A DNA stretch of 42,247 nucleotides, from positions 1 through 42,247 of the IMG/VR virus record IMGVR_UViG_3300045136_000284. One strand, written 5' to 3'. Positions 2,921 to 25,119 of the stretch are shown here, piece after piece. The position numbers and the translations under genes are program-made. The first letter of the stretch is position 1; each line of letters begins with the position of its first letter. This DNA is from a virus. The notes beneath the pieces were generated by a model. That model had not been told where the DNA came from. It did no database searches and saw nothing but the letters and a program-made list of their open reading frames with translations.

Positions 2921-4555
2921 TTAGACGCACTCCATGGTGAAATTCACGTAGGTGGCCCCAGAGACCGCGAACAGGTTCACGGCAATGATGTCATTGGCAG
3001 CGATGCTGGTGGTAGTGAAATCGCTCAGGTTCGTGCTTCGGACAGCTTGCCCGGAACTCAAGGAAACTCCGCTGGTATTGATGGAGTTGGAGCTGGTAGG
3101 CAACGACGTGCCGCTTGCGACTTTCCAGAGCTTGATGGTGCATGTCCCGGAGTCCGCCAGTATACTCCACGCCACCATTGTCGAGGCAAATGGCATCCGG
3201 AGGTAGACCGTGCGCCCAGCCGAAAGCGTCGAGCCGCCGCCATCGAAGGTGGCACCGAAGCTGCGTCCTGGCGATGGGCCCGTAAACCCAGTCGCCCCAG
3301 TGTAACCGGTGTAGCCAGTGACCTGCGGGCCTGTGTACCCAGTGTAGCCAGTTGAGCCAGTCGGCCCAATCGGACCAGTGGCTCCGATGAGCCCCGTGTA
3401 GCCTGTCGTCCCGGTGTAACCCGTGTAGCCAGTGAAGTTCCCGGGGCCCGTGTAGCCCGTTGGGCCGAGCGCCCCCTGCGGCCCAGTGTAGCCCGTGTAC
3501 CCGGTTCGCCCAGTATAGCCTGTGTACCCGGTATAGCCCGTGAAGTTCCCTGGGCCAGTGTAGCCCGTCGGGCCTGTCGGGCCGGTCTCACCGGTGTAGC
3601 CCGTGTAGCCACGCGGCCCGATGTAGCCCGTGTAGCCGGTGGCCCCAGTGACTGCCGGCCCAGTGTATCCGGTGTAGCCCGTAGCGCCCGTAGCCGAAGC
3701 TGAGCCTTCCGGCCCAGTGTAGCCCGTGTAGCCAGTCGCGCCGGTGTAGCCCGTTGCTCCCGTGGCAGCCGCAGCGCCCGCTGGCCCCGTGTAGCCGGTA
3801 AACCCAGTGAAGCCAGTGTACCCGGTGACTTCTGGGCCAGTGTAGCCAGTGTACCCGGTGTACCCAGTCGGCCCAGTGACCTCCGGGCCAGTGTAGCCAG
3901 TTGCTCCCGTGGGGCCTTGCGGTCCGGTGTAGCCCGTCGGACCGGTAGCGCCAGTAGCTGCGGCAGCGCCTTCCGGGCCCGTGTAGCCGGTTCCGCCCGT
4001 TGCCCCAGTCGGGCCAGTGTAGCCCGTTGGCCCAGTGATGTTCGGCCCGGTATAGCCAGTCGATCCAGTTGGGCCGGTGTAGCCGGTCATGCCACGCGGC
4101 CCAGTGTAGCCCGTCGGACCAGTGTGCCCATAAGGCCCGGTTTCTCCGCGTGCACCGGTGTAGCCGGTTGGCCCCGTGGCGCCCATCGGTCCGGTGTAGC
4201 CTGTTGGACCAGTCGGCCCAGCGGCTTCCGTGAGCAAATCGGCGATGGTCTTGGCCGTAAGCCCCGCCATCAGGTAGTAGGCTTTTCCCGAAGTGGACTT
4301 GTTCGTAGGGGCAGTGCCTTCCTGGCCACGAGTGACAGTTAGATCGTTGCCTACGATGTTCGTCACTCGGACGATCTCAGCGTTGGGATCGTCGGCTGGA
4401 TCAGGGTAGTCAGTCGCGTTCCACCATGTGGCGTTGAACGGCGGCGTCGGGAAGCGGCTTGCTTGGCCGGAGTAGACCGTCACCAGCGTGGCTACTGCCG
4501 AGTAGTAGCCGAGCACCCGCGCCTTGGCGAAGTTCTTTACCTGGTCGATCGGCAT
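2921..4555 (-). CDS. Collagen-like tail fibre protein
   Basis: The protein has 544 residues. Residues 1-110 form a globular N-terminal domain containing the phrase VTRGQEGT, common in phage tail proteins. Residues about 110-430 are almost continuous Gly-X-Y triplets, dominated by GPT, GYT and GAT, with short breaks such as AAAATGATG and PEVTGYTG. Residues about 430-544 form a non-repetitive beta-rich head ending NFTMECV. Collagen-like stalks between an anchor and a C-terminal knob are well known in phage fibres and support a trimer. Frequent GYT triplets are unusual, since large aromatics in the X position weaken collagen. The ATG shares one base with the preceding TGA. The DNA of the stalk is itself a long imperfect repeat. 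Confidence 0.85.
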
Positions 4556-8390: not shown

Positions 8391-8399
8391 GGTCCCGGA

Positions 8400-8705
8400 C
8401 TAGCTCGCTTTCTTAACAGCTCCTTTGTAGACCAGCTCCTGAAGCACGAATTGCACCAGCCAGCTCCACAACAGGCTCAGGATCGAAGCTAGGCTCAATC
8501 CGGTAATCGTCAACGTGCCAGAAGCTGGATCAAACTGCGTCTGAATGCCCACCGTGGCGAGCGCCGCCAGCAACGCCGACAGCAAGCGGTTCAACCGGTC
8601 GGTGGACGCCGTGATCCACTTCAACCGAGGCTGCGCTTTTAGCCATTCGATGATGTACACCGCCACGCCAGCGGCGCCGATTTGACTTCCAAACAGGTCG
8701 TTCAT
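8400..8705 (-). CDS. Putative holin (small membrane protein)
   Basis: The protein has 101 residues with hydrophobic stretches at about 8-22 (AGVAVYIIEWL), 40-56 (RLLSALLAALATVGI) and 69-92 (GLSLASILSLLWSWLVQFVLQEL), and a basic tail ending KGAVKKAS. Size, two to three membrane segments and the charged C-terminus fit a holin, which would time release of the endolysin through the inner membrane. The endolysin is at 27959-28483, far away, so this is not a classic lysis cassette. A membrane-associated virion protein is an alternative. The start overlaps the stop of the upstream gene. Confidence 0.55.
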   Translation of the reverse strand: MNDLFGSQIGAAGVAVYIIEWLKAQPRLKWITASTDRLNRLLSALLAALATVGIQTQFDPASGTLTITGLSLASILSLLWSWLVQFVLQELVYKGAVKKAS

Positions 8706-9346: not shown

Positions 9347-9349
9347 AGA

Positions 9350-9997
9350 TCAGCCTCCTTCGCGCGGCGCCTGCCGCTCCAGATCGAACCGGGGTCGGGA
9401 AAGCTCCCGCCAAACGGTCAGCGTGTCGGTTTCCTTCTGGAAGTCCTGGTAGGAACCGACCGAACCCGCGAACACCGCACCGCCTTCCTTCAACTGAAGT
9501 ACATGCGCTGCCATCTCCTGGATGCTGTCCAGAACCTCATCCGGAGCTTGAACAATGTCGCCGTCGTTCACCAGAAGCGGCGGATCACAGATGCCGTACA
9601 CCGTGATCGTGCGTCCGCCTACAGCGTCCAGCGGATGGATCGCCAGCATCCGCACTCCGATCGGAATCCAGCTCGTTACCGGACCGCTGGTCGCCGTCGT
9701 TTCCCGAGTCCAGTTGCGACGCGCGCGGCCCATCGCGGCCAGGCTGGACCGGCGCAATTGCCGGCCGCCAAAGCTCACCGCCAGCGGCACAACCATCGGC
9801 TCCGGGATGGCGTAGAACGTCGTCCCGGCAACCGTGGTGATCTGCACGTCGTCCTGGTAGAAGCCCAGCAGGAGGTTGTGCAGGCGAACCTGCTCATTGA
9901 TCGCTCGATCTACCTCCTGCTGGGGATAGAACGCAGTGTTCCCGTCCAGAGACGACCACACTTGCTGGCGCATCTGTAGCAGCGTTCTGGCGGGCAA
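9350..9997 (-). CDS. Head-tail adaptor-like structural protein (copy 2)
   Basis: The protein has 215 residues. The best start is TTG at 9997, with AGGAG eight bases upstream. The first in-frame ATG (9973) has no ribosome site. It opens with MRQQVWSSL and then EVDRAINEQVRLHNLL, continues with a beta-rich part (FYAIPEPMVVPLAVSF), and ends in a long helix with DFQKETDTLTVWREL. This order (helix, beta middle with a PLAV or LRVD-like strand, C-terminal helix) is that of phage adaptor or connector proteins. It is probably part of the tail-neck assembly along with the flanking adaptor-like genes. Confidence 0.55.
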   Translation of the reverse strand: MPARTLLQMRQQVWSSLDGNTAFYPQQEVDRAINEQVRLHNLLLGFYQDDVQITTVAGTTFYAIPEPMVVPLAVSFGGRQLRRSSLAAMGRARRNWTRETTATSGPVTSWIPIGVRMLAIHPLDAVGGRTITVYGICDPPLLVNDGDIVQAPDEVLDSIQEMAAHVLQLKEGGAVFAGSVGSYQDFQKETDTLTVWRELSRPRFDLERQAPREGG

Positions 9998-10009
9998 GAC
10001 GTTTGCTCC

Positions 10010-10225
10010 TTACCTCGACGGTCGCCGCGAGCTCAACCGCCGGCCAGACTTCCGCGCTGCGATTTTACGCATGTTCTCTGCGAAAATCGCCCGCTTGGCC
10101 TCGACCCCGCCACGGGCTTTCGCCCGAGCGATTTTAGCCGGCGTGGCTTTGCCGAACTTGCCTAGCGTGCCACGGCGCTTCATCCGCGCCACCGCAGCTT
10201 GAATCCACAGCTTCTTCCCGGCCAT
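10010..10225 (-). CDS. Small very basic protein
   Basis: This is a 71-residue, Lys/Arg/Ala-rich protein (MKRRGTLGKFGKATPAKIARAK) with no acidic patches apart from a few Glu in the second half. GAGGAG lies eight bases before the ATG. Small basic proteins with the GTLGKFG-type motif occur in phage structural clusters and may bind DNA or line the head. That role is inference. It lies between adaptor genes. Confidence 0.65.
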   Translation of the reverse strand: MAGKKLWIQAAVARMKRRGTLGKFGKATPAKIARAKARGGVEAKRAIFAENMRKIAARKSGRRLSSRRPSR

Positions 10226-10227
10226 GC

Positions 10228-10488
10228 TTACTTCTCCTCTTTGAAGTCAAAGCCGTCCTGCGGCGTGAAGTACGCCCGATCGCGCCGCCACAGCGACATG
10301 CCTTCCTCCGCCGCAGTCCAATCGTCCATGTTCACCGCGTAGTCCACAGGGTATGCCCTGGTTGGGTTCTGCTGGCGCTGGCGCTTGGCCTGGTCGATGC
10401 GGGCCAGGGCTTCGTTCATGCGCTGAAAGGTGTTGGTTCCAGGGCACCCAGGCTTCACCGGGTACCCGTACTCGTCTTGGTCGTGCAT
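10228..10488 (-). CDS. Hypothetical protein
   Basis: I choose the ATG at 10488, because GGAGG sits five bases before it. An ATG at 10509 is in frame but lacks a ribosome site. The 86 residues are polar, with a helical segment (RMNEALARIDQAKRQRQ) and an aromatic-acidic end (YFTPQDGFDFKEEK). No family is recognised. It lies in the neck-protein cluster. Confidence 0.6.
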   Translation of the reverse strand: MHDQDEYGYPVKPGCPGTNTFQRMNEALARIDQAKRQRQQNPTRAYPVDYAVNMDDWTAAEEGMSLWRRDRAYFTPQDGFDFKEEK

Positions 10489-10516
10489 CACAGCCTCCAT
10501 GTCCGACATTCGGACG

Positions 10517-11689
10517 TCAGAAGATATCCGAGCCGAAATCCCATGCCATTACTCGCGGATCTTGCAACTGCCAGATGTCCGCGTTGCCGGGCAGCATGCC
10601 GCGCCACCACGGCGTTCTGAGCGCATTCAGGAACTTGCCCTCGTCCGCATTCTTCGCCTGCTCCACGCCTTCCCGGAACCGCATCTCGTAGTGGTCTGCC
10701 AGCGTCGGATTGTGGTAGGGGTCCTTCGGCCCTTGCTTATACCGGAAGGCGTCAGCCAGCGCCCCAAACACGAACACGCTGGGGTTGATGAACCACGGCG
10801 GACGGTCCGTCTCGGCATCCAGGTCCGGCCACTGCTGATAGTAGCGATAGCTGAACTGGCGAACCGAAAGCGGCGCCGGCCAGATCTCATAGAGCATGTT
10901 GCCTTGCTCGTTCGGTCCAAGGTCGATCAGCCCGTAGTAGGGATTGCCACTGACGAACGTGCGCCGCGGGTCGCGGTAGTTGGCCTCCTCCAGGGGAACG
11001 TGCAGGCGCACCGGCCAGCCTGTCTGGTCGTCTTTCATTGCCAGGATGGCCTTAAGGTCGGGCGCCAGCGTGACGTACATGGTCACAATGCGATAGGTCG
11101 AACCGGACACGCTATCGCCGCCCCAGGGATGAGTCATGATCAGTTGCGTGGGGCTGACCACCGCCTTGACCGTGTAGATCGGATGCCGGTCACTCAGTCG
11201 GAGCTGCCGCCCAGCGAGTGACGATTGGGTCACCGTGGACCCCGCCGAATGCACGTAGGCGCACCGCCCGACGAACCGATCCGCAAGCACCTGGACCACC
11301 GGAACGGCCTCGTAGGTTTCGCCAGACTTGCCGATGTAGAGGATCGAGTTCTCGGTGATGCCGGCCATCGAGTTCGGGACGAACTCCACAAAGCCGATGT
11401 CGGACACGCCCACTGCAAGCGTCGTGTTCACCACGTCGTTCACCGGCCAGTTGGTGTCCGTTCCGACTACAACATCGCTCCCGGAAGCCAGGCTTACCGT
11501 GCCATCGGAGTGCATCGCCGGGATCGGCAGAATGCCGTCACGGATCAAGTCCGTCCAGTAGGTGCGCATGTCCAGCACCTGCCGGATGCGCCAGTTGATC
11601 CAGCGCTTGACCTGCTCCGGGCTGACGTTCGGCCGCTGGTTGGTGATCTCGCCGATCATCGTCCCAAGGTCGTCTTTAAACTGTGACAT
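10517..11689 (-). CDS. Large adaptor-like neck protein
   Basis: The protein has 390 residues. The N-terminus (MSQFKDDLGTMIGEI, then EQVKRWINWRIRQVLDMRTYW) matches the helical start of phage adaptor-like proteins. A beta-rich middle with many Val, Thr and Gly follows, then W-P-x-P-like strands (YEIWPAPLSVRQFSYRYYQQ) and a C-terminal helix (HYEMRFREGVEQAKNADEG) that resembles the 215- and 214-residue neighbours. The middle is inserted relative to those shorter relatives. Only a terminator and a broken transposase gene lie upstream, so it is the first intact gene of the neck/tail block. Confidence 0.55.
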   Translation of the reverse strand: MSQFKDDLGTMIGEITNQRPNVSPEQVKRWINWRIRQVLDMRTYWTDLIRDGILPIPAMHSDGTVSLASGSDVVVGTDTNWPVNDVVNTTLAVGVSDIGFVEFVPNSMAGITENSILYIGKSGETYEAVPVVQVLADRFVGRCAYVHSAGSTVTQSSLAGRQLRLSDRHPIYTVKAVVSPTQLIMTHPWGGDSVSGSTYRIVTMYVTLAPDLKAILAMKDDQTGWPVRLHVPLEEANYRDPRRTFVSGNPYYGLIDLGPNEQGNMLYEIWPAPLSVRQFSYRYYQQWPDLDAETDRPPWFINPSVFVFGALADAFRYKQGPKDPYHNPTLADHYEMRFREGVEQAKNADEGKFLNALRTPWWRGMLPGNADIWQLQDPRVMAWDFGSDIF

Positions 11690-11717
11690 CGCTTAGCACC
11701 CTTGCGGCAGCCCTGCT

Positions 11718-11765
11718 AAAAAAAGAGCCCAGCGGGGGCCGCCGCCATGTAGCACCCCGCTGGGC
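11718..11765 (-). terminator. Rho-independent terminator (minus strand)
   Basis: On the minus strand GCCCAGCGGGG pairs with CCCCGCTGGGC, an 11-bp perfect stem with a 17-base loop (11738-11754), followed by T and C then seven T residues (11724-11718). It lies between the TnpB remnant and the 390-residue neck gene, so it would end or reduce transcription from the capsid genes before the tail genes. Confidence 0.85.
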
Positions 11766-11787
11766 GAGTTCTCCCCGCAGTCGGAAC

Positions 11788-12147
11788 CTAGCCGTTCAAC
11801 CGTTGCCGGGAACATAGAGAACTGTTCCCAGCATCCGCCCGTTGCCGAGCGGAGGCGCCGGTCTTGCGCGTCGATACGCTGCCGGCTTCCCGCTTCATCC
11901 GGACAGCCTGCCCTGCGGCAGGTCTTACACCCCGTCCACGGGCGTTTTCCGTCTCCGGTCCACTCCCGGCGACGGCGGCCGCAATGGCCGCGAGGTTGCG
12001 CGCTGCGTTCTCGTCCCGATCCAGGACGAGGCCGCAGGCGTCGCACCGAAACGTCCGCTCCCACAGTGGCAACCCCTCATTCATGGCCATACGCCCCACC
12101 CATTCACTGGGAAGCGCAATCGTCTTCCCTCCCTTCGCCGCGCTCGG
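11788..12147 (-). pseudogene. tnpB: TnpB (IS200/IS605) C-terminal remnant
   Basis: The minus frame reads ...LPLWERTFRCDACGLVLD, then RDENAARNLAAI, then SGSGPE-T and a Gly/Arg-rich tail ending SRQRLNG. This is the second half of the TnpB zinc ribbon (one CxxC pair), the RuvC-III DRDxNAAxN motif and the typical tail of actinobacterial or Deinococcus-type TnpB. The first CxxC pair and all upstream catalytic regions are missing, so it cannot be active. The frame continues upstream only as noise through the collagen-like genes. A possible start of a short product would be ATG at 12090. The recognisable part ends at TAG 11788. Confidence 0.8.
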
Positions 12148-12148
12148 A

Positions 12149-12259
12149 TTACGGACCCGTGTAACCGGTGTAGCCAGTCGGACCGGTCGAGCCTGCCGGA
12201 CCCGTAGGGCCCGTCCAGCCAGTCGCGCTAACGATCTTGCTCTCGTGCAGAATCGCCAT
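12149..12259 (-). CDS. Tiny collagen-like protein (copy 2)
   Basis: The protein has 36 residues: MAILHESKIV at the start, then Gly-X-Y triplets of the type GPT, GYT and GST, ending [14 protein letters not shown] lies six bases before the ATG. It aligns with the neighbour at 12273-12389 (shared M-A-I, E, K, V, A-T, T-G pattern), so the pair arose by duplication. The TAA falls exactly at the border with the TnpB remnant. It may be a small virion decoration or fibre piece. The function is unknown. Confidence 0.6.
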   Translation of the reverse strand: MAILHESKIVSATGWTGPTGPAGSTGPTGYTGYTGP

Positions 12260-12272
12260 GCTTGCTCCTCCT

Positions 12273-12389
12273 CTACGAGCCCGCCGGGCCCGTGTATCCG
12301 GTGTAGCCCGTGGGCGATGGACCAGCGTAGCCGGTGTAGCCAGTGTATGGCGTCGCTGGCACGCACTTGTCTTCGAAAGTGATCGCCAT
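12273..12389 (-). CDS. Tiny collagen-like protein (copy 1)
   Basis: The protein has 38 residues: MAITFEDKCV, then ATPYTGYTGYAG and [13 protein letters not shown] good ribosome site (AGGAGG) precedes the ATG. The first residues match the next gene, and the GYT triplets match the fibre stalk at 2921-4555. It follows the capsid genes and a 70-residue protein that also begins MAI, so a head-surface accessory role is possible but not shown. Confidence 0.6.
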   Translation of the reverse strand: MAITFEDKCVPATPYTGYTGYAGPSPTGYTGYTGPAGS

Positions 12390-12398
12390 CAGGCCCTC

Positions 12399-12611
12399 CT
12401 ACGCAATGAGCCCGAACCCGGTCCAGCCCCCCGGAGTGCCTGCGGTCACGCACACCCAGCCGATGTACCCGCCCGTGTTCGGAGCTGTATTCCACACGAT
12501 GTCGCCCCTTTGATAAGTTCCATCGGTGGACGCAGACGGAGGGGCGTCGCCGAAGTACTCCTTGACCGTTCCGCCAGGGATTCGAGGCTTGCTCCAAGGT
12601 TGGATTGCCAT
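12399..12611 (-). CDS. Small protein with a phage tail-type C-terminal motif
   Basis: The protein has 70 residues. The end reads GDIVWNTAPNTGGYIGWVCV, then TAGTPGGWTGFG, a phrase seen at the C-termini of many phage appendage proteins. The rest (MAIQPWSKPRIPGG) is short. GAGGAG lies just before the ATG. It belongs to the group of small genes after the major capsid protein and may be a decoration or appendage piece. The precise role is unknown. Confidence 0.65.
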   Translation of the reverse strand: MAIQPWSKPRIPGGTVKEYFGDAPPSASTDGTYQRGDIVWNTAPNTGGYIGWVCVTAGTPGGWTGFGLIA

Positions 12612-12632
12612 GTCCTCTTCTCCTCGCTGCGA

Positions 12633-13070
12633 TTACAGCTTGTCTGCCGGGACCGTGACGTGCCAGTAGCACACGTCCACGTAGATCAGCCCGGCCGTGG
12701 CCGTGTTGACGTTTCCGCCGGTGGTGGTGATCCTGGCGTACATCGTGTCCTCGGCGTAGGTAGCCGCAACCGGGCCGGCAGAAATCTGCGCCGTGGTGTC
12801 AGACACCGCCTGGGAGACACTGAACGCCGAGGCGAACGAAGTCGCCGTGCCAGCCGAGGACCCTACCGACAGCGTGGCAGCCGAGATGCTCCCGCCGGCT
12901 ACCGCTTCCGCGTGCTTGATCCGGACCCACTGCACCACGGAACCCTTCGGCAGGGTCTGAAGCGTGATGTTCTGGGTGGTTGCCGCAGCGGTAAAGTCCT
13001 TGTAGCTGATGATGTACCGCTTGACAATCGGCCCAGTGCCAAGAGCCGACAACAGATTGGTTTCAACCAT
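12633..13070 (-). CDS. Structural protein, probable head decoration
   Basis: The protein has 145 residues, Ala/Ser/Thr/Val rich and largely beta-like (SVVQWVRIKHAEAVAGGS, then ATLSVGSSAGTAT). It sits directly after the major capsid gene with a strong GAGGAGG site. It has no signal peptide or membrane segment. A head decoration, vertex or minor capsid role is inferred from composition and position. No family is recognised by sequence. Confidence 0.55.
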   Translation of the reverse strand: MVETNLLSALGTGPIVKRYIISYKDFTAAATTQNITLQTLPKGSVVQWVRIKHAEAVAGGSISAATLSVGSSAGTATSFASAFSVSQAVSDTTAQISAGPVAATYAEDTMYARITTTGGNVNTATAGLIYVDVCYWHVTVPADKL

Positions 13071-13095
13071 CTCTTTTTCCTCCTCCTCAGCCCCC

Positions 13096-14067
13096 TCAGA
13101 ACAGCGTGGACGAGGTCAGCTTGAAGCACAAACGCGCCAACGGGACCGTCAGCGTGTTGCCGCACAAGAACTGCCCGGCGGTGTCGATGCCAAGCTGGGT
13201 GCCCTTGAACCCGGTGAACCCGAAGTTGAACAGCGGATTCACACTGAAGTACCACTCAACCGCCTGGGAGTTGATGCCCCACATGCGGCCGCTGGTGCCC
13301 GTCGGGCAATAGGGGTCCAGAACCGCCTCGGCGCCGTTCACCCGAACCGTCTGGAAGCCAGCCTGCGCGACATCCGATTCCCGATCGAGGTTCTGCTGCA
13401 TCGGCTGGAGCGAATTCCAGATCAGATCCCAGCCGTTACGGGAACACACGATCATGTCCACGCGCCGGTTGCCGTTCCAGGTTTGGGTAATGGCCCGGTT
13501 CAAGGCCGACAGGCTGAACGTGGTCAGGTTGGCCACGTAGGCGTTCATGCCTTTCACCGTGCCCGGCGGGGCGATGTCCGCACGAGTGATTCCGCCGATG
13601 GTGGTGTAGGTGTTGCCATCGTCGATCCACTCCTCGAACCCCACCAGGTTGCGAGTCCGCCCGCCGGCAGTGGACAGGTACATGTCCGTCGCCAGCATCT
13701 CCGCCATCGCCGCCGTGGCGTTCGCAAACTTGGCATTGATCTCCTTGAACACCGCCTCGGGCCCGTCGTTGGACATCGCATTGAACCCGATCAGCGGAAC
13801 GTTCACCAGGTACAGCTTCATCGGCGTTTGCAACGCCGTTTCGGTCACCCGTACGTCCGGAGGCGCACCCTCTCCAGGGCCAACTGCCCCGCCCGCCAGC
13901 TTGCCGACGATCAGCGGCTGCTGGACGAGTAAGCCGCCTCGGAATTGGTCTCGGCGCTTGGTCGAAAGCCGCACAAAAACCGGACTTTCGAAGTACACCG
14001 TATCCCGCAACTTCGGCTCAATGAAGTTGTGGGTGTAAGCGTTGATGCCCTGAAGGGGCAGTGCCAT
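13096..14067 (-). CDS. Major capsid protein (probable HK97 fold)
   Basis: The protein has 323 residues. The N-terminus is ALPLQGINAYTHNFIEPKLR and the protein contains IGFNAMSNDGPEAVFKEINA, a phrase typical of capsid proteins in this class, followed by a long spine-helix-like region with repeated Ala and Met and a C-terminal beta-rich part (LTVPLARLCFKLTSSTLF). It follows a coiled-coil scaffold candidate, as usual for short-tailed phage head genes. GGAGGAAC lies before the ATG. The HK97 fold is inferred from order, size and pattern. Confidence 0.75.
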   Translation of the reverse strand: MALPLQGINAYTHNFIEPKLRDTVYFESPVFVRLSTKRRDQFRGGLLVQQPLIVGKLAGGAVGPGEGAPPDVRVTETALQTPMKLYLVNVPLIGFNAMSNDGPEAVFKEINAKFANATAAMAEMLATDMYLSTAGGRTRNLVGFEEWIDDGNTYTTIGGITRADIAPPGTVKGMNAYVANLTTFSLSALNRAITQTWNGNRRVDMIVCSRNGWDLIWNSLQPMQQNLDRESDVAQAGFQTVRVNGAEAVLDPYCPTGTSGRMWGINSQAVEWYFSVNPLFNFGFTGFKGTQLGIDTAGQFLCGNTLTVPLARLCFKLTSSTLF

Positions 14068-15683: not shown

Positions 15684-16157
15684 TCAGGATGCGCTGCTTA
15701 GCGAAATGATCCAGTTCTGGTAACCAGCCAGGTCGATCAGGCTGAGCTGGCTCTCCAGGTAGTTGACGTGCCCTTCCTCGTCCTGGAGCAGGTCTTCGAA
15801 CAGCTCTCGGCTGCCCGTGTCCCCGACCTTCTGGCATAGATCCACGGCATCGGAGTACTTCGCCACAGCTTCGAGTTCCAGCTTCAGGTTTTCCTCAAGC
15901 TGCTCTCGGGCGTCCTTGCCTGGGACGACATCCACCGCCAACCCAAGCTTCGGAGTCCCTTCCAGGAACACGATGCGCTCCATGAGCCGCTCGGCGTGTT
16001 TCATCTCTTCGATGGCTTCCCGCTTGGTCGCCGCGCTCAACTTCCCAAGTCCCCAGTTGGCCTGTAGCTCGGCGTGCAGCATGTACTGCATGATGGCTTG
16101 CACCTCCGAACTCAGCGCCTCGTTCAAGACTTGAATGACCTTCCCGTCGCCTTTCAT
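15684..16157 (-). CDS. bfr: Bacterioferritin
   Basis: The protein has 157 residues, the full length of the family, beginning MKGDGKVIQVLN as in bacterial bacterioferritins. Ferroxidase ligands fall at the expected places: E18, E51, H54, E94, E127 and H130. Met52, the haem ligand between subunits, is also present in EEMKHAER. The helical plan with LFEDLLQDEEGH near the C-terminus is intact. The family forms a 24-subunit shell that oxidises and stores iron, with haem at two-fold interfaces. Finding it in a phage structural operon, coupled by ATGA to an upstream zinc-ribbon-like gene, is unusual. It is probably expressed late. It may manage host iron or protect against oxidative stress, but a structural role cannot be excluded. 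Confidence 0.93.
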   Translation of the reverse strand: MKGDGKVIQVLNEALSSEVQAIMQYMLHAELQANWGLGKLSAATKREAIEEMKHAERLMERIVFLEGTPKLGLAVDVVPGKDAREQLEENLKLELEAVAKYSDAVDLCQKVGDTGSRELFEDLLQDEEGHVNYLESQLSLIDLAGYQNWIISLSSAS

Positions 16158-16363
16158 GCTTTCTTCCCTCCCTTTCGATTGGTATCGCCAGCGGCGCTAG
16201 CCGGCCGGTGGCCGATGTGGAACCCCTGGCAGTGCGGACAGTAGTAAGCCTCGAAGTGGCGCCGCGTGGTCTTGGAAGCGATTTGCGCCGCCAGCTCCGC
16301 CGCCTGCTCGCTCGGGTACTTCCTTCTGCCAGGGCACACCGCTGGCTTCCCACAACAGGACAT
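16154..16363 (-). CDS. Small Cys/His protein
   Basis: The protein has 69 residues, with two Cys near the N-terminus (MSCCGKPAVC), a helical middle (QAAELAAQIASK) and YYCPHCQGFHIGH, a CxxC followed by His residues. It is likely a small zinc-binding protein of the kind common in phages. The start is coupled to the end of the glycosyltransferase gene (TGATG) with GGAGGAG upstream, and the stop overlaps the ATG of bacterioferritin. A functional link to iron is possible from position only. Confidence 0.7.
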   Translation of the reverse strand: MSCCGKPAVCPGRRKYPSEQAAELAAQIASKTTRRHFEAYYCPHCQGFHIGHRPASAAGDTNRKGGKKA

Positions 16364-19308
16364 CAGTCGTCTCCTCCCGCCCAGGATTTCATAAAGTGAT
16401 GATACGCAATGGTTTTCTCGGTGAAGGTGGTCTTGTGCGTCTGGTGGTTGAACGGGAAAAACACGCTGGGTTCTACCACCAGGATGTCCTGGTCGCCTTC
16501 GGCGATCGAGGCGTCCACCTCGCGCGAGAAGATCTCCATGCCATTCTCGAACACCTTGTCATCTTCAGGGTCGGCTTGCTCCATCCGCTGAAGCACACGT
16601 CCGAGAGTCGGATGTCCAGGGACCGCCCCGATGACGCTGTTGGCGATGAAGCCGTTTTCCTCTCTGGCGACGAGCATCGACGGGACCAACAGCGAGTGGG
16701 GTATCTCCGTCAGCAGCTCCATGTCAGCGTCTAGGTAAACCCCGCCATTGCGCTGCAACTCCAGCAGCCGCAACCGGTCAGCCGCCTTGACCCATCGTTT
16801 GGCCTCAACCGCCCGTCGGAAATAGGCATCCTCGATCCAGCGAGTGTTGTCCAGGGTCAGCAGTCTGTACTCCCAGCCCTTCAGCCGCTCCCGATGCGAG
16901 CTTAGGCACACTTTGACCAGCTCCGGCGGCTCTTCCCCGAGCCAGATGGAGAATGCCCGTCGCGGGATTTTGCGCGGCCGCATGTCCACTTCGATGTCCA
17001 GCCCAAGCTGCTCTGCGCGCTGGCGAAGCAGCGCCCGGTCTCGCTCCACCAGCTCCGGCTGCCAACCTACTCGGTAGGTTTCGTCCAGCTCTTTGCCTGT
17101 AACGCTGAAGTGATGGTGGTTGATCCGCGCCTGCTCGCACCAAACGTACCGGCGAAGCTTGCGGCAACGCGCGGTGAGCTCATTGTCACATCCGACATGA
17201 TGGTAGCCAGTGTGGAAAAACTCGCCATCAAGCAATGGCAGCAGCGCCTTGCCCGCTAGCCAATGGGTTGCCACCTGCCCGCTGGTGTAGATCCCGTCAT
17301 TGAGTCCGATCAGGCCGTCGTAGGCCGGGAAGTGGCGCAGCATGGCGTGCACAGCCTCCAGCAGGAAGCCGTGCTGAGGCTCGCAGTCCGTCCCCAGGTA
17401 CATGACCAGCTCGCCTCGGGCCCGGGCTACGCCGCGCTGGACCAGGCGCGGCACGCCTTGATTGTTCGGCGGCCAGTCGTCCACCTCCACCAGGATCTCG
17501 TACAATGGCCAGCCGGCGTTGGTTTCGATCAGGCTGATGAGCCGCTGAAGCTGCTCTTCGCGCCCTAGCGTCGGGATGACGATGCTCACAAGCGGCTCTT
17601 TCACGTAGCGATACCAGATGGTTTTGTGCTTTCCGACTTGGCCGAATCGCTCCGTGACCGCGCGGCGCACCCCGGGCCACTCTGGCGCGAAGTCGTGCCC
17701 AGCAATCAGAATGCGCGCCTTGGGCAGCCATGCCTCGATGTCCGCTTTGACATCCTCGTAGGTGTGCCCGGCGTCGATGAACACCATGTCTACGCTGTGG
17801 TCGTCGAAGCGCTCTGCGGCTTCGAGCGAACCCATGCGCAGAACATGCAAGTTGTTCAATTCCTTGGCGTTATTCAGGAACTGGTGATAGATGTTGTCCG
17901 GGTTTGCGGCTTCCGCATGCTGCACCTCTTCGCCTTTGGAGCCGCGAAAATGGTCTACCGCCCAAACCTCGCCCCGATGACATCCGGAAGCAATGGCGTG
18001 AGTCGAACGCCCTTTCCATGAGCCGACTTCGACCACGCTTTGCATACGCTCCGCAGTTTCGTACAGCCACAGCAGTTCCGGGTAGAGCATCCAGCCATCG
18101 ATTAAGCGATCAGCATATGGGAAGTAGTACTTCGTGTGCTCCAGGTAGGTCGCGTTGAAGGGATTCCACTCCAGGCACTTCAGCAGGTCCTCCTGGGCGC
18201 CTTGAATATTGCCAAGCCAGCCACGCCCCCAGTAGCGGAAAGCATGCGGCTCATCGCGGTACTGTGCCACCAGGTTGGCATAGAAAGCGTGCCAAGGGAT
18301 CTCCATTGCTGCTGCGGCAAAGGCCGCGACCGCTGTCGCTTGCCGGTTGTGCTGATAGAAGCCCGCCAGCCGCAACAGCGCCTCGCGGCGCGTCGGATCG
18401 GTGTGGAAGGCGCGGAAGTACCACTCGGCCTGCTCGTCTGGTCGCCCTAGGCCGCCCAGGCAATCCCCCAGGTAGATCATGCTCTGCGCCTTCTCGGCTT
18501 TCCAGCGGTCCATGGCAATGTGCCGCTGAAGCACTTGCACAGCACTGGCGTATCGCCGGGTGTAGAGCAGCTCCCGGCCCAGGTAGTGCATGTTGCGGTC
18601 ATTGTCCGGGTGCTTGTAGACCTCCCAGCACAGCCCAGGCAGGTAGTGGCTGCGCGGCTTGGTGGGGTCCTGCCAGTGCTCGATCTTGAGCACGTTTTCC
18701 GGAAGCTGAGTTCGCCGGATCTCCGCCTGCGGATCAATCGGCTGAAGCACCTCGTGGATGACGCACTCTGGGTTCCAGCGCAGCAATCGCCGGTCGTACA
18801 TCTTGCATTGCAGGAACTGCACCGCCGGCCGCCCCATCGCATCGTGCGCGTAGACAAACAAGAACTCCAACTGCCCGTAGCCTTCGTCGATGTAGCGGTT
18901 CACCGCGTCGATGTCCAGCGCGGTGTACTCCTCATCGCAATCTGGCATCGACACGATGTCGTTGCTGGCAAGCGAGGCAGCGTAATTGCGGGCATCGGCG
19001 TAGCAGAAAAACCGATCCCCAGCGGCGACCACCGGCGGATCGGGCACCACCACAAACTCGCGGTTGATAGCCTCCGCCAGCTTCGCGTCAATCTCGGTCA
19101 CGAACCTGGCGCCGACCTCATCGACTTTGCACCCATGCGCACGGGCAACCTCAGGGGTGCCATCGGTTGACCCGGTGTCCACCAGCACCACCTCGCCGCC
19201 ACGGGCCTGAAACTCGCGCAGGGAGCGCATCAGGCGCGGCAGCGTCTTCGCTTCATTCTTTGCAATCAGGACTACGGAGAATTTCGGTCTGGATGATTGA
19301 TTCGACAT
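16363..19308 (-). CDS. Multi-domain glycosyltransferase/methyltransferase fusion
   Basis: The protein has 981 residues. Residues about 8-210 form a GT2-type glycosyltransferase (FSVVLIAKNEAKTLPRLM, then VDTGSTDGTPEVA, DCDE at 123-126). Residues about 240-400 look like TPR-type helical repeats. Residues about 422-540 form a class I methyltransferase-like domain (VVEVGSWKGRSTHAIA, then FIDAGHTYEDV). Residues about 573-740 carry a second GT2-like fold start (VSIVIPTLGREEQL). Residues about 783-970 match GT32/OCH1-type sugar transferases (RAFSIWLGEEPPELV, then GGVYLDADMEL with DxD 860-862). The likely job is stepwise glycan building or modification of a host or virion surface. Acceptor and sugars are unknown. 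It lies between portal and bacterioferritin. Confidence 0.85.
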   Translation of the reverse strand: MSNQSSRPKFSVVLIAKNEAKTLPRLMRSLREFQARGGEVVLVDTGSTDGTPEVARAHGCKVDEVGARFVTEIDAKLAEAINREFVVVPDPPVVAAGDRFFCYADARNYAASLASNDIVSMPDCDEEYTALDIDAVNRYIDEGYGQLEFLFVYAHDAMGRPAVQFLQCKMYDRRLLRWNPECVIHEVLQPIDPQAEIRRTQLPENVLKIEHWQDPTKPRSHYLPGLCWEVYKHPDNDRNMHYLGRELLYTRRYASAVQVLQRHIAMDRWKAEKAQSMIYLGDCLGGLGRPDEQAEWYFRAFHTDPTRREALLRLAGFYQHNRQATAVAAFAAAAMEIPWHAFYANLVAQYRDEPHAFRYWGRGWLGNIQGAQEDLLKCLEWNPFNATYLEHTKYYFPYADRLIDGWMLYPELLWLYETAERMQSVVEVGSWKGRSTHAIASGCHRGEVWAVDHFRGSKGEEVQHAEAANPDNIYHQFLNNAKELNNLHVLRMGSLEAAERFDDHSVDMVFIDAGHTYEDVKADIEAWLPKARILIAGHDFAPEWPGVRRAVTERFGQVGKHKTIWYRYVKEPLVSIVIPTLGREEQLQRLISLIETNAGWPLYEILVEVDDWPPNNQGVPRLVQRGVARARGELVMYLGTDCEPQHGFLLEAVHAMLRHFPAYDGLIGLNDGIYTSGQVATHWLAGKALLPLLDGEFFHTGYHHVGCDNELTARCRKLRRYVWCEQARINHHHFSVTGKELDETYRVGWQPELVERDRALLRQRAEQLGLDIEVDMRPRKIPRRAFSIWLGEEPPELVKVCLSSHRERLKGWEYRLLTLDNTRWIEDAYFRRAVEAKRWVKAADRLRLLELQRNGGVYLDADMELLTEIPHSLLVPSMLVAREENGFIANSVIGAVPGHPTLGRVLQRMEQADPEDDKVFENGMEIFSREVDASIAEGDQDILVVEPSVFFPFNHQTHKTTFTEKTIAYHHFMKSWAGGDD

Positions 19309-19502: not shown

Positions 19503-21380
19503 TCAGTAAGGATTGCCAGTCCGCTGCCCACGAGTCAATCGCGGGACTTCGCCTTTCCCAATAGCGTCTGGGGCAAGCATCTGGCGCTCCATCGCCAGCT
19601 CTTCTAGGATCTGGTCGATGTCCGGGAACTCCAGAATCTCCAACAGTTTGCGTCGAGGGATGGCATTCAGCCGGTAGAGGCTGATGGCTACCTGCTTGTC
19701 CCGGTCGCGCTTGCCGCCGTGCATGGAGCCGGCCGCCACCTGCACCTTGAAGTTCCGCCAGTGGTCTTCCTTTGGCGAACTCCAAGGCACCATGGAGCCG
19801 GGGTCGTAGTCGAAGTCATGGAAAGTCAAGCCGTCGGCGCCGAGCATGCGCATGCGCTGCGCGCGCGTGTAGTACTGGAAGATGTTGCTCACAAACTGCT
19901 CTGCGGCTTCACGCACAAACGGCTCAATGTGCCGGCTCTGAAGCCGGAAGGCCGTTTGGCTGGTATCGCGGAACTGCTCGATGGTATCGCCGCCAGGGAT
20001 CTGGTTCTTGCGGCTCATCCCGGCAATGTCCAGCGTTCCAGCGTGTCGCTGGAAGGCTTGATCGACACGATCCCAGAAAGCGCCAACGTAGCTAGGCAGC
20101 GGTGGCGGTTGCAGGTAGGTCGCGTGACGCACCGGGTCAGCAGTGGGGTTGAACTTCAACCGGGCCCCAGGCATGTCCTGGTGGAAGCTGCGGAAGCTGG
20201 TGTCGTCCACGGCGCCGTCCACAAAGGCAAACTGCGGCTCCACGGCCCTTCGGCTAAGATCCATCATCCCTGCACCAAGCTCGTTTTTGGCGATTGCCAG
20301 CGGCACAAGGTTGCGGTAGATGGACACCCCGCCATTGCGCCACACTGCCGGCACCAGGATCAGTTGAGCGAATGGGAAGCGCCCATGCCAGAAGCACGAC
20401 GGTCCATCGTAAAGCACCTGCTCGCCGACGACGACGATCAACCGCTTGCGCGGAAACAGCCGCCCGCCAGGCGGAACTCGATACCAGTAGTTATGCTGGT
20501 CGGTTTGCAGGCGCGGGTCCTTGACCAGCACCTCCACCCCGGACTCATTGATGCTCGGGTCGTCGATCCAGAACTCCTCGACCAGGGCTACCGGGAACTG
20601 GCTGGCCCGCTGCGGAGACACGCCGAAGTAGCGCCCTTGCTGCCCAGAGCGAATCGTGGGACTCATCGCGGTGAAGCCATATTCAGGCACCTGATCGGGC
20701 GGAGAGTAGTTGGAGCCTGCGACCGTCCCAGAGCCGATGCTGATCTGGCGCTCCAGGTTGTCCGCAGCCGCGCCGTAGACCTGCTTGATTCGGTGCAACG
20801 GCTTGTAAACGCGGTACAAAACCCCTGAGGAGTCTTGGATGTCCCGCCCAGGCTGAATGGGGAACACGGAGTCCATGCCGGCGGCCAGCACGTGCATCCG
20901 GCCAGGCATACTCGCACCGATCTTCCAGTAGCCGACGCTGAGCAAAGCATGGTCAACGGCTTCCTCCAAGCGCAAGTCCAAGTCCTGCTGCGCCCATTCG
21001 TAGGCGATGATCTTCTTGGCAATCTCGGCTTGCCGCAAGTAGTGCGGGTGGTTGTCCGAGGAGGAGATTTCCGGAGCTGGGCGAATGTCGGTCAATGCGC
21101 ACAGCGCATCGATCCGAGCCGCGAACATGGCGTTATCGAAGTACTTCGACCGGTAGCTGGGCCGGCTGCGCGGCCAGTAGCGCCCTTCCAGCATGTCGAT
21201 GTAGGTCTGGATGTAGGCGAATTCCGGGTTGAGCTTCGCCGTTTCTATGGCTTCCTCGCGTGCAGCGCCGATCCAGCGCCGCACAGAGGCTTGGTAGCCA
21301 TCCGGGAAGTCCATGGTCCCGCTTTTGGTGTTCAGGACAATCGGCGCTCGCGGCGCCATCTCGATCACGTTCGCTGCCAT
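19503..21380 (-). CDS. Portal protein
   Basis: The protein has 625 residues, the usual length of portals in podovirus-like phages. After a helical start it has the paired phrase YWPRSRPSYRSKYFDN, then a long core with typical portal elements: SVGYWKIGASM, FWHGRFPFAQLILVP, the stretch VPLAIAKNELGAGMMDLSRR and a C-terminal helical crown (FREAAEQFVSNIFQYYTRAQR type). It forms the 12-subunit ring at the head vertex through which DNA is packaged. It lies between TerL-side genes and the head genes, as expected. AGAGG precedes the ATG. Confidence 0.75.
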   Translation of the reverse strand: MAANVIEMAPRAPIVLNTKSGTMDFPDGYQASVRRWIGAAREEAIETAKLNPEFAYIQTYIDMLEGRYWPRSRPSYRSKYFDNAMFAARIDALCALTDIRPAPEISSSDNHPHYLRQAEIAKKIIAYEWAQQDLDLRLEEAVDHALLSVGYWKIGASMPGRMHVLAAGMDSVFPIQPGRDIQDSSGVLYRVYKPLHRIKQVYGAAADNLERQISIGSGTVAGSNYSPPDQVPEYGFTAMSPTIRSGQQGRYFGVSPQRASQFPVALVEEFWIDDPSINESGVEVLVKDPRLQTDQHNYWYRVPPGGRLFPRKRLIVVVGEQVLYDGPSCFWHGRFPFAQLILVPAVWRNGGVSIYRNLVPLAIAKNELGAGMMDLSRRAVEPQFAFVDGAVDDTSFRSFHQDMPGARLKFNPTADPVRHATYLQPPPLPSYVGAFWDRVDQAFQRHAGTLDIAGMSRKNQIPGGDTIEQFRDTSQTAFRLQSRHIEPFVREAAEQFVSNIFQYYTRAQRMRMLGADGLTFHDFDYDPGSMVPWSSPKEDHWRNFKVQVAAGSMHGGKRDRDKQVAISLYRLNAIPRRKLLEILEFPDIDQILEELAMERQMLAPDAIGKGEVPRLTRGQRTGNPY

Positions 21381-22297: not shown

Positions 22298-22897
22298 TCA
22301 CTTTTCCCTCAAGATCGCGCTCAGGAAATCGTCCTTGGCCGCCGGACTGCGCGGATCGGACAAGTCCGCCCCGAGGTAACCGCACAGGTCGTCTCCAGTG
22401 AAGTCCTCCTTGCCCAACACCATGGCAATGGCGTCGTACTGCTCCTTGGTCAGAAGAACCTTGTGCGGCTCCTGGGCCACGGTCCCCAGCCAGCCCTGCG
22501 CCAAGGCCCAATCCAGCGTCACGCGCAGGTGGCGCTCCAGGCTGACCCCAGCTCGCTCAGCGCATTCCCGAAGATGCCCTAACCACACCGGGTCAATGCG
22601 CAGCTCCACAACCGTGGTGTCGCCATCACGACTTGCCTGACGCTCCACCGCGCTCACAATCGCTGCTGGGGTGGCATCGGGCAGCGCTTTGCGAATGCGC
22701 TCGGCCATGGCGGCCGGCAGCATGATCCCGCCGGCTAGCTCTTCGTTCACCAGGCGCGTCGCCGCAGCGGCAATTGCGTCAACTACGCTGTCCTGCCCAT
22801 CGCCGCGCAGGCTCTCAGCCTTGTGCGCCTGCTCTTTGCCTAGGGAGATGATCACCGCGAACTCACGTTGCGGCTTGGTACTGGTTTCGGCGGCCAT
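22298..22897 (-). CDS. Hypothetical protein, possible DNA-binding segment
   Basis: The protein has 199 residues with a strong AAAGGAGGT site. The TAA of TerL overlaps its ATG. The N-terminal 70 residues are charged and helical, with an Ala-rich stretch (DAIAAAATRLVNEELAGG). The middle reads TTVVELRIDPVWLGHLRECA, then AGVSLERHLRVTLDWAL, which has the strand-helix-helix character of ribbon-helix-helix proteins. The C-terminal third is acidic. The function is unknown. Confidence 0.6.
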   Translation of the reverse strand: MAAETSTKPQREFAVIISLGKEQAHKAESLRGDGQDSVVDAIAAAATRLVNEELAGGIMLPAAMAERIRKALPDATPAAIVSAVERQASRDGDTTVVELRIDPVWLGHLRECAERAGVSLERHLRVTLDWALAQGWLGTVAQEPHKVLLTKEQYDAIAMVLGKEDFTGDDLCGYLGADLSDPRSPAAKDDFLSAILREK

Positions 22898-25119
22898 TAG
22901 AAAACAACCTCCTTTACGTTGCTGTAGCCCATGCTGGGCTGCTCGTCGGGCAATCTGCCCATGTCTTTGAAGTCAAAGTTCGTGTTCTGCTGTTGATCCC
23001 AGCTCTCATGGCGCCACTTGATCAGGATGCTGCGGCAGCCCTCCAGCGGGCAGCGCTCTGCGCGATTGTACTCGTCGCGGTGCCAGACCAGCCCGCAGCG
23101 CAGGCAACAGGCGGTCCATTTGCCTGTTTGCTGCAAACCGGCAGGATCAGAGTTTGGCAGCTCTCCTGGCCGGCGCCGATCGAGCTGATGCGCCCCAAGT
23201 AGCGCCAGCTCGCAAGCGGTCACGGTGTCATCATGAACGGTCTCATCGTAACCGGCGCCATCCCATGACTCGCGCTTGCCTTTGGTGGAGTTCCCAATCG
23301 TGCCATCCGGGTGGCGGGCGTAGTGGCGCATCTCCCAAGCGAATACCGGGTCGCGCACAATAAGAGAGCCGTCAGCCAGCCATGCGTCCAGTTGCACCCA
23401 GGCGTCCTCCCGGTTGCGCGAGTTCCACACCCAATGAAAGCGAGGCGTCAGAACGCGTTCGGAATCCGGATTCGCCCAGCGGTACAGGTTCGGGTACAGC
23501 AGGTAGTGCCGAAGCTGATCCCCAACCGTCTGGAAGTTGGTGTAATCCACCACGATCAGGGCATTGTTGTACCAGCGGCCGATGGCATCGGCCACCAGCG
23601 CCAAGTCTGTCGGCCGGGTGACGTTGCTGCGGAAGCACGCCACTTGCACATCGGGGTTCGGCGCAACCCCAATGCGGTTCACCCAGATGACCGAGTAATC
23701 GTAGCCGCTGCCCTGCCCGGAAGCCACGTCCACGCCGATGACGTACCGGCAGCCTTCAATGGGCATTTCCCAGACCTTCAAGAAGCGGTTGGTGTCGCCA
23801 ACGTGGCTTTTCTTGCAGCCGGGGCACCAGCACAGCGAGGTCTCTCCGCCGGCGTGCCGGCGAGGGGCATGGAACTTACCGGAGGAGTCCATGAAGCCCA
23901 CCGCCAGCGGTTCGCGCTCCCGCACGGTCTGCGCCACTCGCTCCATGGCCTTGTTGCTGAACAGCGTCTCGGTGATGTACTGGAACGCTTCCTGCGGGTT
24001 GGTAGCCAGAGATTGGCGCATGTCCATCAGAGCGCTTTCTCCAATCGCCTCAGCGTTTTGGCGCTGCTGCCACAGCCAGCGCATCTGCCCCAGACTAAGC
24101 TCGTACGGCCGGTAAATGCCAGTGCTGCAATCCGAGCAGCGGGTGCCATCCAGGCTTTTGCCGCCGAAGTTCGTCGGTCGAATCTGCCGGCAGCCAGAGC
24201 ACATGCACCACTCTTCCGCTGCGCGCGTTTTGACCGCCAGCTCCGGCTCTTCTGGCTTCCAGCCGTCCTCCGGCGGAATGAAGTGGCTCTTGTCGAAATA
24301 GATCGGGAGGAACAGCGGAAACCATGTCGCCACCTCGCCTAATCGCACCTGGCTTTCCCAGAGCCGTTCTAGGAACCGCGCCGAGCGCTTGACGCGGCTT
24401 TCAATGATCGCGCAGGTGGTCGGCTCATCCGGCAGCGCCCAGCGCAGATCGCCGAAGACCAGCGAGCGCGCCTTGGCCTCTTCCATTGACCCTAACTCGC
24501 TGATATGGGCGAAGTTAATGCGGTAGCCCTCGGCCACTCCGGTGTACCTTCCGGCGCTTTGCACCAGGATGCGCGTGTTGAGGCCGGGGTCGCGGGCGCG
24601 AAGCTGCGGGTCGGGATTGATCAGGTGCAGCTCCTCCATGTACTTGCGCGGTCCCATCATCGGCCGGAGCCACCATGGCAGCCGGTCGTAGATGTGCAGG
24701 ATGATGCCAAACAAGGACGCGGCGTGCGACATGTCATAGGAGAGGACTAACGCGTTGGCGTTGGGCTGAAACATTGCGGACCAGGCGATGTACGCCTCGA
24801 CGAACGTCGAGACATACAATTGGCGGGCCTTAATGATGAGCAGCCGTACGCCGCGCCCTTTCTTTTTGAGCTGGTTGATGCACTCCAGCACCAGCTCTTG
24901 AGTGTCCATGAGGCGTAACGGGACGTCCCGCATGTCCTTGGTCGAGATCCAGAAGTAGTTCCGGGCGCAGTACTCGAAGTTGTCCATGCACTTCTGGATC
25001 TCGTCGTGGAGGATCTGCACCTCCTTGGGCGCAAGCAGGGACCAGTCGCACTTCTCCGGCTGATCGAAGTACTCGATCAACTCTGCAATCCCTGGGTCCC
25101 GGCCATGCGGATCAAGCAT
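22897..25119 (-). CDS. terL: Terminase large subunit
   Basis: The protein has 740 residues. The ATPase part holds an arginine-rich P-loop-like segment IIKARQLYVST (97-105), whose Gly is replaced by Tyr, and the Walker B with catalytic Glu in INFAHISELG (E208). The C-terminal nuclease part carries IGVDVASG (D464), VVDYTNFQ (D525) and HDDTVTA (D630/D631). Three Cys clusters, at 305-331, 430-435 and near the C-terminus (CCLRCGLVWHRDEY), look like added zinc ribbons. The enzyme packages DNA into the head and cuts it. It starts inside the end of the small-subunit candidate. The unusual P-loop is noted in the findings. Confidence 0.9.
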   Translation of the reverse strand: MLDPHGRDPGIAELIEYFDQPEKCDWSLLAPKEVQILHDEIQKCMDNFEYCARNYFWISTKDMRDVPLRLMDTQELVLECINQLKKKGRGVRLLIIKARQLYVSTFVEAYIAWSAMFQPNANALVLSYDMSHAASLFGIILHIYDRLPWWLRPMMGPRKYMEELHLINPDPQLRARDPGLNTRILVQSAGRYTGVAEGYRINFAHISELGSMEEAKARSLVFGDLRWALPDEPTTCAIIESRVKRSARFLERLWESQVRLGEVATWFPLFLPIYFDKSHFIPPEDGWKPEEPELAVKTRAAEEWCMCSGCRQIRPTNFGGKSLDGTRCSDCSTGIYRPYELSLGQMRWLWQQRQNAEAIGESALMDMRQSLATNPQEAFQYITETLFSNKAMERVAQTVREREPLAVGFMDSSGKFHAPRRHAGGETSLCWCPGCKKSHVGDTNRFLKVWEMPIEGCRYVIGVDVASGQGSGYDYSVIWVNRIGVAPNPDVQVACFRSNVTRPTDLALVADAIGRWYNNALIVVDYTNFQTVGDQLRHYLLYPNLYRWANPDSERVLTPRFHWVWNSRNREDAWVQLDAWLADGSLIVRDPVFAWEMRHYARHPDGTIGNSTKGKRESWDGAGYDETVHDDTVTACELALLGAHQLDRRRPGELPNSDPAGLQQTGKWTACCLRCGLVWHRDEYNRAERCPLEGCRSILIKWRHESWDQQQNTNFDFKDMGRLPDEQPSMGYSNVKEVVF

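Follow-up and report, generated by a model that had tools for sequence, protein, structure and literature searches.

A modular one-chain glycosyltransferase/methyltransferase of a virus that probably glycosylates collagen-like virion fibres

Introduction

Why does a virus carry, among its structural genes, a single protein that combines several glycosyltransferases with a methyltransferase, and on what molecule does this protein act? The question is raised by the IMG/VR virus record IMGVR_UViG_3300045136_000284. Its 42,247 bases, the whole stretch of DNA analysed, are called the window here. In the window, the gene P0001 (16363..19308) encodes a multi-domain glycosyltransferase/methyltransferase of 981 amino acids. 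The initial annotation had given this frame with its length; the frame starts with ATG and is open throughout, and the strand, which had gone unstated, is the minus strand. Two targets had been suggested for the protein, a glycan on the virion, for example on collagen-like Thr or Tyr, and the polysaccharide of the host.

The usual reading of phage glycosyltransferases encoded close to tail-fibre genes is that they modify the host surface or DNA (PMC7029224, PMC10202952). It is already known that a collagen-like protein is glycosylated by the product of a neighbouring gene, and that phages encode glycosylation of their virions. In our literature search, most subscription journals being outside its reach, no report of phage collagen glycosylation by phage enzymes was found, and the same limited literature held no link of modular one-chain enzymes to Gly-Tyr-Thr (GYT) collagens across many phages. 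Here we propose that P0001 is probably a soluble modular protein glycosyltransferase, which builds a methylated short O-glycan on collagen-like virion fibres in the infected cell.

Results

Domain architecture of the enzyme

The chain is composed, from its N terminus, of a GT2 domain (GT2a) with a TPR-like scaffold, a Methyltransf_24-type methyltransferase, a second GT2 domain (GT2b) and a GT32/OCH1-type domain. These are four catalytic domains plus a scaffold; the initial annotation, titled "four-part", had listed five parts. The motifs named there were found, namely DCDE at residues 123-126, PTLGREEQ from 579, VGSWKGRST from about 428, FIDAGH from about 510 and DAD at 860-862. Three Pfam families matched above their curated cut-offs: Glycos_transf_2 (8.6e-19; three stretches, the best at residues 11-58), Methyltransf_24 (3.7e-17; residues 426-532) and Gly_transf_sug (GT32/DXD; 2.2e-6; residues 820-869). 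Residues 104-377 matched phrog_13126, a glycosyltransferase family of PHROGs (3.1e-50). The AlphaFold2 model of the chain, built on 34 aligned proteins from the window and the loci, had a mean predicted local distance difference test score (pLDDT) of 90.2 and a predicted template modelling score (pTM) of 0.69, which predicts domains that are well folded and loosely placed relative to each other. Folds were compared with VIA-align 2, where each row covers mainly one domain. Of the invariant residues given below, the DxDE of GT2a, D641 and D708 of GT2b, the DxD of GT32 and the S-adenosylmethionine (SAM) motif residues are the ones expected to be catalytic; these roles are taken from knowledge of the families.

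GT2a (residues 1-215; 18664..19308, minus strand as are all domains of the chain) was assigned by alignment, profile and fold. In 39 aligned sequences its invariant residues are D44/D49, ARN 106-108, D123/D125/E126, H185/E186 and H211/Q213. The TPR-like helical scaffold (residues 216-395; 18124..18663) was recognized from TPR chains in the PDB profile search and from the model, in which helices run through about residues 222-395; by sequence alone, the Pfam TPR models were below cut-off for this chain. The GT2-TPR part matched GmaR (1.2e-15) and SunS (3.4e-7) in the PDB profile search, and its best fold match was SunS (7msp_B; Z 22.6, 3.1 Å, 270 aligned residues, model 1-317). In the fold comparison, the match to SunS, which is a GT2 plus a helical domain, reaches as far as residue 408. 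PDB titles call SunS and ThuS S-glycosyltransferases. This part therefore has what marks the GT2 and TPR polypeptide glycosyltransferases: a GT-A fold with GT2 motifs and a C-terminal TPR-like helical domain.

The class I SAM methyltransferase (residues 414-566; 17611..18069) has the SAM-binding fold and motifs of the MeT1/Methyltransf_24 type, and its SAM-motif residues are invariant in 15 sequences. It matched MeT1 both in profile (6g7d, 4.1e-6) and in fold (6g80_C; Z 20.8, 2.4 Å, 173 residues, model 397-571). Because other O-methyltransferase types also score Z 17-18 on this domain, it is the context that suggests a sugar as substrate.

GT2b (residues 572-784; 16957..17595) was assigned by alignment and fold, with D641, H682 and D708 invariant in 31 sequences. 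Its fold matches were WrtF (9omj_B; Z 18.3, 2.7 Å, 171 aligned residues, model 572-774) and TarP (Z 17.3); its PDB profile matches were weaker and belonged to the GT2 family (best 7e-6). The GT32/OCH1-type domain (residues 781-981; 16366..16968) was assigned by alignment, profile and fold. It has the DxD, the C-terminal His/Trp motif and the GT-A fold of OCH1-like enzymes, and DxD 860/862, H970 and W976 are invariant in 17 sequences. Profile matches were YeGT (1.2e-10) and Och1 (1.8e-4), and the same two proteins were matched in fold: YeGT (8ovt_B) with Z 19.4, 2.7 Å and 180 aligned residues (model 777-976), and Och1 (9n3s_A) with Z 17.1, 2.8 Å, 191 aligned residues (model 777-971) and 24% identity.

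The best viral fold matches, from BFVD, include multi-domain glycosyltransferases of the giant viruses Pithovirus LCPAC104, Indivirus and Catovirus; one of the names has methyltransferase in it. The chain has no hydrophobic 19-residue window reaching 1.6, so that nothing points to a membrane anchor of the kind found in lipid-linked glycan enzymes. In domain-wise profile and fold searches, every part came out as a fold that is plausibly catalytic, and its motifs are conserved. A middle or last part with a non-catalytic fold had been named beforehand as a reason to give up the proposal; as both are plausible catalytic folds, the proposal passed the computational half of that test. With the predicted domains, the conserved motifs and the modelled folds, the best fit is a glycan that would be built and methyl-capped by one chain.

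Association with collagen-like genes

Loci were obtained from scans of viral contigs and one scan of genome contigs, and 94 including the window remained after removal of overlapping copies. GT2a-TPR is carried by 60 of them; the other 34 have GT2b only. An open reading frame (ORF) was counted as collagen when it had runs of at least ten Gly-X-Y triplets with Thr at Y in at least half of them; a looser rule accepted shorter runs. By the strict rule, a collagen ORF was present in 50/60 GT2a-TPR loci vs 0/34 GT2b-only loci (Fisher, 5.6e-17), and by the looser rule in 54/60 vs 0/34. Among loci of at least 10 kb the counts were 46/54 vs 0/22, and among those of at least 18 kb, 31/35 vs 0/11. Collagen and enzyme were on the same strand in 49/50, with a median gap of 1.24 kb. 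Loci sharing at least two other proteins were joined into 23 groups, and a collagen member was present in 21 of the groups.

The association was also found from the collagen side. Records with DNA encoding GYTGYTG and a confirmed collagen ORF were collected (the first 50 of 77; 42 of 119 stretches were dropped for having no collagen ORF), and records with the permuted peptide GTYGTYG served as control (the first 50 of 102). GT2a-TPR was matched in 27/50 GYTGYTG records vs 4/50 GTYGTYG records, and in 21/28 vs 2/24 when records of at least 20 kb were counted. All four control matches came from records with a Gly-X-Thr collagen, of which the control set has 11; the rest gave 0/39. In this sample, close members of the enzyme family occurred with 18/47 collagens of at least 5% GYT vs 0/14 GYT-poorer ones (p = 0.006). 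A more distant stand-alone GT2-TPR accompanies Gly-Pro-Thr (GPT) collagens in L306, L312 and phage DSL-LC01. In Actinomycetia phage DSL-LC01 (L377, OQ999401), the stretch 6556-13098 has in a row two annotated collagen genes, one hypothetical gene, one for a tryptophan halogenase and the GT2-TPR gene.

The proposed acceptor in the window is a collagen-like tail fibre of 544 amino acids (2921..4555, minus). It has 97 Gly-X-Y triplets in runs of at least three, of which 72 have Thr at Y and 36 are GYT. In the pooled 3328 triplets of the GT2a-TPR loci, Thr occupies 68% of the Y positions and Tyr 33% of the X positions, and GYT is the commonest triplet. For bacteria as a whole, the published value for Thr at Y is 31.6%, and for Gram-positive bacteria it is 48.3% (PMC8968730). 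The two marks of SgtA/BclA-type systems were thus found: a glycosyltransferase gene next to a collagen-like gene in the family (in the window, on the same strand and 11.7 kb apart), and Thr in the collagen repeat in both the window fibre and the pooled triplets.

Two putative micro-ORFs on the minus strand are possible second acceptors: one of 36 amino acids with a Gly-Xaa-Thr collagen tail (12149..12259) and one of 38 amino acids with GYT triplets (12273..12389). They lie just downstream of the capsid-region genes and are made up almost wholly of a Gly-X-Thr tail and the short head before it. A counterpart of 52 codons is found in L097 (5701-5859).

Exchange of modules among relatives

Besides GT2a-TPR, the 60 loci carry GT2b in 55 cases, the methyltransferase in 16, GT32 in 15 and a GT-D-like module in 12; the commonest form is the plain GT2a-TPR-GT2b (30/60). 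The order of domains had been put forward as the remarkable point. We dropped it as the novelty, since 3/60 GT2a-TPR loci share the order of the window and the modules are shuffled, doubled, split or replaced. After GT2a-TPR, other orders include MT-GTD-GT32-GT2b, MT-GT32-GT32-GT2b and GT2b-MT-GTD (MT, methyltransferase; GTD, GT-D). L094 has two GT32 modules; replacement is seen in L089, by GT-D, and in L020 and L120, by another kind of methyltransferase. Modules fused in the window are separate neighbouring genes in L084, L086, L122 and L131, as expected of one pathway. Thus, the core is GT2a-TPR plus GT2b, and the additions are exchangeable. The identity of GT-D comes from profile matches of the phage modules to the PDB sequence 4pfx/4phr (9.1e-8) and to a DUF1792 entry (9.2e-5); in Pfam, two relatives gave 0.0024-0.008, below cut-off. 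The same order had been expected to be sought in bacteria as well. The scan of genome contigs, which used the GT2b alignment alone and does not bear on bacterial GT2-TPR-MT chains, gave three relatives, all GT2b only.

Sugar-nucleotide genes were considered as a clue to the donor. In 102 neighbouring proteins, those on the plus strand out of 177 from 25 loci, GDP_Man_Dehyd, Epimerase and RmlD_sub_bind matched two proteins each among the matches listed (25 of 43 families), too few for naming a sugar. In L003, a gene with a CX3CX2C motif (6950-8026), radical SAM-like by eye, lies between two GT2-TPR genes upstream of a GYT collagen.

Gene neighbourhood in the window

The structural genes of the window that could be named by family scans of the Pfam and PHROGs type are all on the minus strand. 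The enzyme gene lies between the genes for the portal protein (19503-21380; P22_portal, 9e-8) on its 5' side and a ferritin-like protein of the Dps/bacterioferritin type (15684-16157; Ferritin, 1.4e-30) on its 3' side, just as the initial annotation had placed it. This position is in the structural operon, with the portal on one side and capsid genes on the other. Further members are a terminase-like gene (22897-25119), a major head protein match (13096-14067) and, between the head-protein region and the fibre in the listed gene order, two SU10-type adaptors and an internal virion protein match. The ferritin-like gene has its place inside this operon, and a relative with 41% identity is present in the near relative L085.

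Other genes of the window were also noted. Within the structural gene region, a stretch at about 11788-12140 (minus) resembles the zinc-binding C-terminus of TnpB (Cas12f1-like_TNB, 1.5e-6) and is followed by a sequence that, by eye, is terminator-like. A protein of 341 amino acids (29318-30343, minus) has hexapeptide (left-handed beta-helix) repeats and is acyltransferase-like; it might acylate a sugar, and it has no relative in the other GT2a-TPR loci examined. A small protein (31171-31722, minus) matches the C-terminal domain of RNA polymerase alpha and weakly sigma-70 region 4, from which a phage transcription factor is possible. Two DNA methylases were found by Pfam, N6_N4_Mtase (4e-42) and C5 DNA_methylase (1.4e-65).

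Discussion

SunS/ThuS and GmaR are glycosyltransferases acting on polypeptides. We take GT2a-TPR as the initiating enzyme because it is tied to collagen and built like these proteins. The GT2a domain with its TPR scaffold would hold the fibre polypeptide and start the glycan, the most likely site of the first sugar being Thr at Y of Gly-Tyr-Thr or Gly-Pro-Thr triplets, and GT2b and GT32 would then extend or branch the glycan. Lacking the support of hydroxyproline, the collagen triple helix may be stiffened and hydrated by the finished glycan, through which the fibre would also acquire a surface specific to the phage. In the cuticle collagen of a deep-sea worm, glycosylated Thr stabilizes the collagen without hydroxyproline. 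The methyltransferase would O-methylate a sugar and thereby cap or mark the glycan; it is read as capping because MeT1 blocks a sugar hydroxyl (PMC9883506). Between the two targets suggested at first, the gene association strongly favours the collagen-like fibre, and little was found for the host polysaccharide. We infer the acceptor, the sugars, the order of steps and all that is said here on activity from domains, motifs, folds and gene association.

Several observations weigh against this proposal. Many loci are from related phages, one gene-sharing group making up 31/60. The gap between fibre and enzyme genes in the window is the largest of the set, the other loci having flanks of at most 10 kb. 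Thr-rich Y positions occur in phage collagens also without GT2a-TPR enzymes, and L071 and L084 have the enzyme and collagens without GYT. No collagen was found even by the looser rule in 6/60 loci, four of which are in pieces of less than 13 kb and two, L094 and L101, in more than 20 kb. Conversely, 4/22 records of at least 20 kb with at least 15% GYT, counted by hand, lack a GT2a-TPR match; when these four and three GYT-poor records were searched for plain GT2, one match exceeded the cut-off. In the cultured jumbo phages PaBG and NCTB, no collagen was found within 12 kb of the distant GT2-TPR genes, which have 26-34% identity to the L312 enzyme.

Four other explanations were weighed. The location of the enzyme gene, with portal and capsid genes on either side in the structural operon, would also suit glycosylation of another virion protein, such as the major capsid or a tail protein, with nothing but a shared late-gene location behind the collagen link. 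Mycobacteriophage glycosyltransferases are described as putting glycans on the C termini of capsid and tail-tube proteins (PMC12619734), a precedent for such acceptors. However, the collagen link recurs in 21/23 dissimilar phage groups and is seen from the collagen side as well, whereas the portal of the window is shared only by L085 and its capsid has relatives just in L085 and, weakly, in L081. Since a common capsid acceptor does not explain this spread, we consider another virion acceptor unlikely.

Modification of host lipopolysaccharide, capsule or teichoic acid against superinfection, that is, serotype conversion, is a role proposed for marine phage glycosyltransferases encoded beside tail-fibre genes (PMC7029224). 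The GtrB-like O-antigen conversion family phrog_841 was matched weakly (7.5e-4), which agrees with it, as do the structural neighbours of GT2b, TarP and WrtF. A Gtr cassette, however, has a membrane-anchored GtrB and a GtrA flippase. The chain has no membrane-like segment, and neither a flippase nor a further Gtr-like family was found among the other window proteins scanned, in a window that may be a fragment. The nearest matches of the first domain are polypeptide glycosyltransferases, and the collagen association and the location among late structural genes point away from the host surface too. A role in serotype conversion is thus rather improbable.

A variant of the collagen proposal is that the chain acts on Tyr of GYT rather than on Thr, with the GT32 domain as a tyrosine glycosyltransferase. 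YeGT, the best solved match of GT32, is described as glycosylating tyrosine (PMC11152714), and Tyr is the commonest X residue. On the other hand, GT32 is present in 15/60 loci whereas GYT is general, and the GT32 fold also serves sugar acceptors, as in Och1. The median GYT values were 0.44 with GT32 (n = 12) and 0.36 without it (n = 42; p = 0.34), and with no association seen we rejected GT32 acting on Tyr as the cause of the GYT triplets. Modification of Tyr is very improbable.

Glycosylation of hypermodified phage DNA bases, for which the title of Pyle 2024, cited in PMC12619734, describes phage DNA-glycan glycosyltransferases and with which the DNA methylases of the window could be connected, is likewise very improbable: it would leave the collagen association unexplained, the C5 methylase argues for ordinary cytosine, and no base-hypermodification enzyme of the thymidylate synthase or hydroxymethylase type was found by Pfam in the 41 proteins scanned of the window, which may be a fragment.

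Glycosylation of collagen-like fibres by GT2a-TPR enzymes therefore remains our preferred explanation, and a wider picture can tentatively be drawn from it. Widespread tailed phages may make collagen fibres on which one-chain "glycan synthases", with swapped extension, GT-D, GT32 and methylation modules, write defined glycans at Gly-Tyr-Thr; the sugar coat could then evolve quickly, and glycosylated Thr could play the part of hydroxyproline. The repeated and specific link to Thr-rich collagen-like fibres provides a concrete protein acceptor for such glycosyltransferases, and the covariation of GYT and enzyme is a direct prediction of substrate specificity. If the proposal is true, collagen O-glycosylation, known from bacterial spores and giant viruses, would reach tailed phages as well, compact one-chain enzymes would become available for producing glycosylated collagen in bacteria, and what fibre glycans do for adsorption and stability would become accessible to experiment.

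Among known systems, SunS/ThuS and GmaR share the GT2 and the TPR-like helical domain and match residues 1-400 best in fold and profile, but they lack the methyltransferase, GT2b and GT32 modules. Their substrates are small bacteriocins or flagellin. In Mimivirus, the chemistry of collagen modification is lysine-based. This virus is described as modifying its own collagen, by hydroxylation and glycosylation (PMC8968730), much as glycosylation is proposed here for the phages; it is a eukaryotic virus, whereas these are bacterial viruses with Thr-rich collagens. Mycobacteriophages also decorate their virions by phage-encoded glycosyltransferases (Freeman 2023, as cited in PMC12619734), with capsid and tail-tube C termini as acceptors there and collagen-like fibres as the likely acceptors here. 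The dGT1/Fap1 pathway is alike in that a stepwise O-glycan is built on a repeat protein and dGT1 has GT-D and GT-A on one chain (PMC5063993, PMC5207161). In the phage relatives, the GT-D modules match the 4pfx/4phr entry; however, six genes divide the work there, and the window carries a methyltransferase and GT32 and no GT-D. By analogy, the nearest biochemical precedent is SgtA of Clostridioides difficile, which is encoded next to the gene for the collagen-like spore protein BclA3 and is described as transferring, in vitro, beta-O-linked N-acetylglucosamine (GlcNAc) onto Thr residues of the collagen repeat (PMC7157674). A glycosyltransferase gene beside a collagen-like gene is common to both systems, and Thr is the demonstrated acceptor in that one. 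SgtA is described as adding only GlcNAc, extending enzymes not having been found in that study, whereas the phage enzymes have up to five catalytic modules on one chain; the likeness lies in the context and the Thr repeat. The BclA glycan of another spore former carries a 2-O-methyl sugar (PMC6222408), which the methyl cap proposed for the phage glycan would recall.

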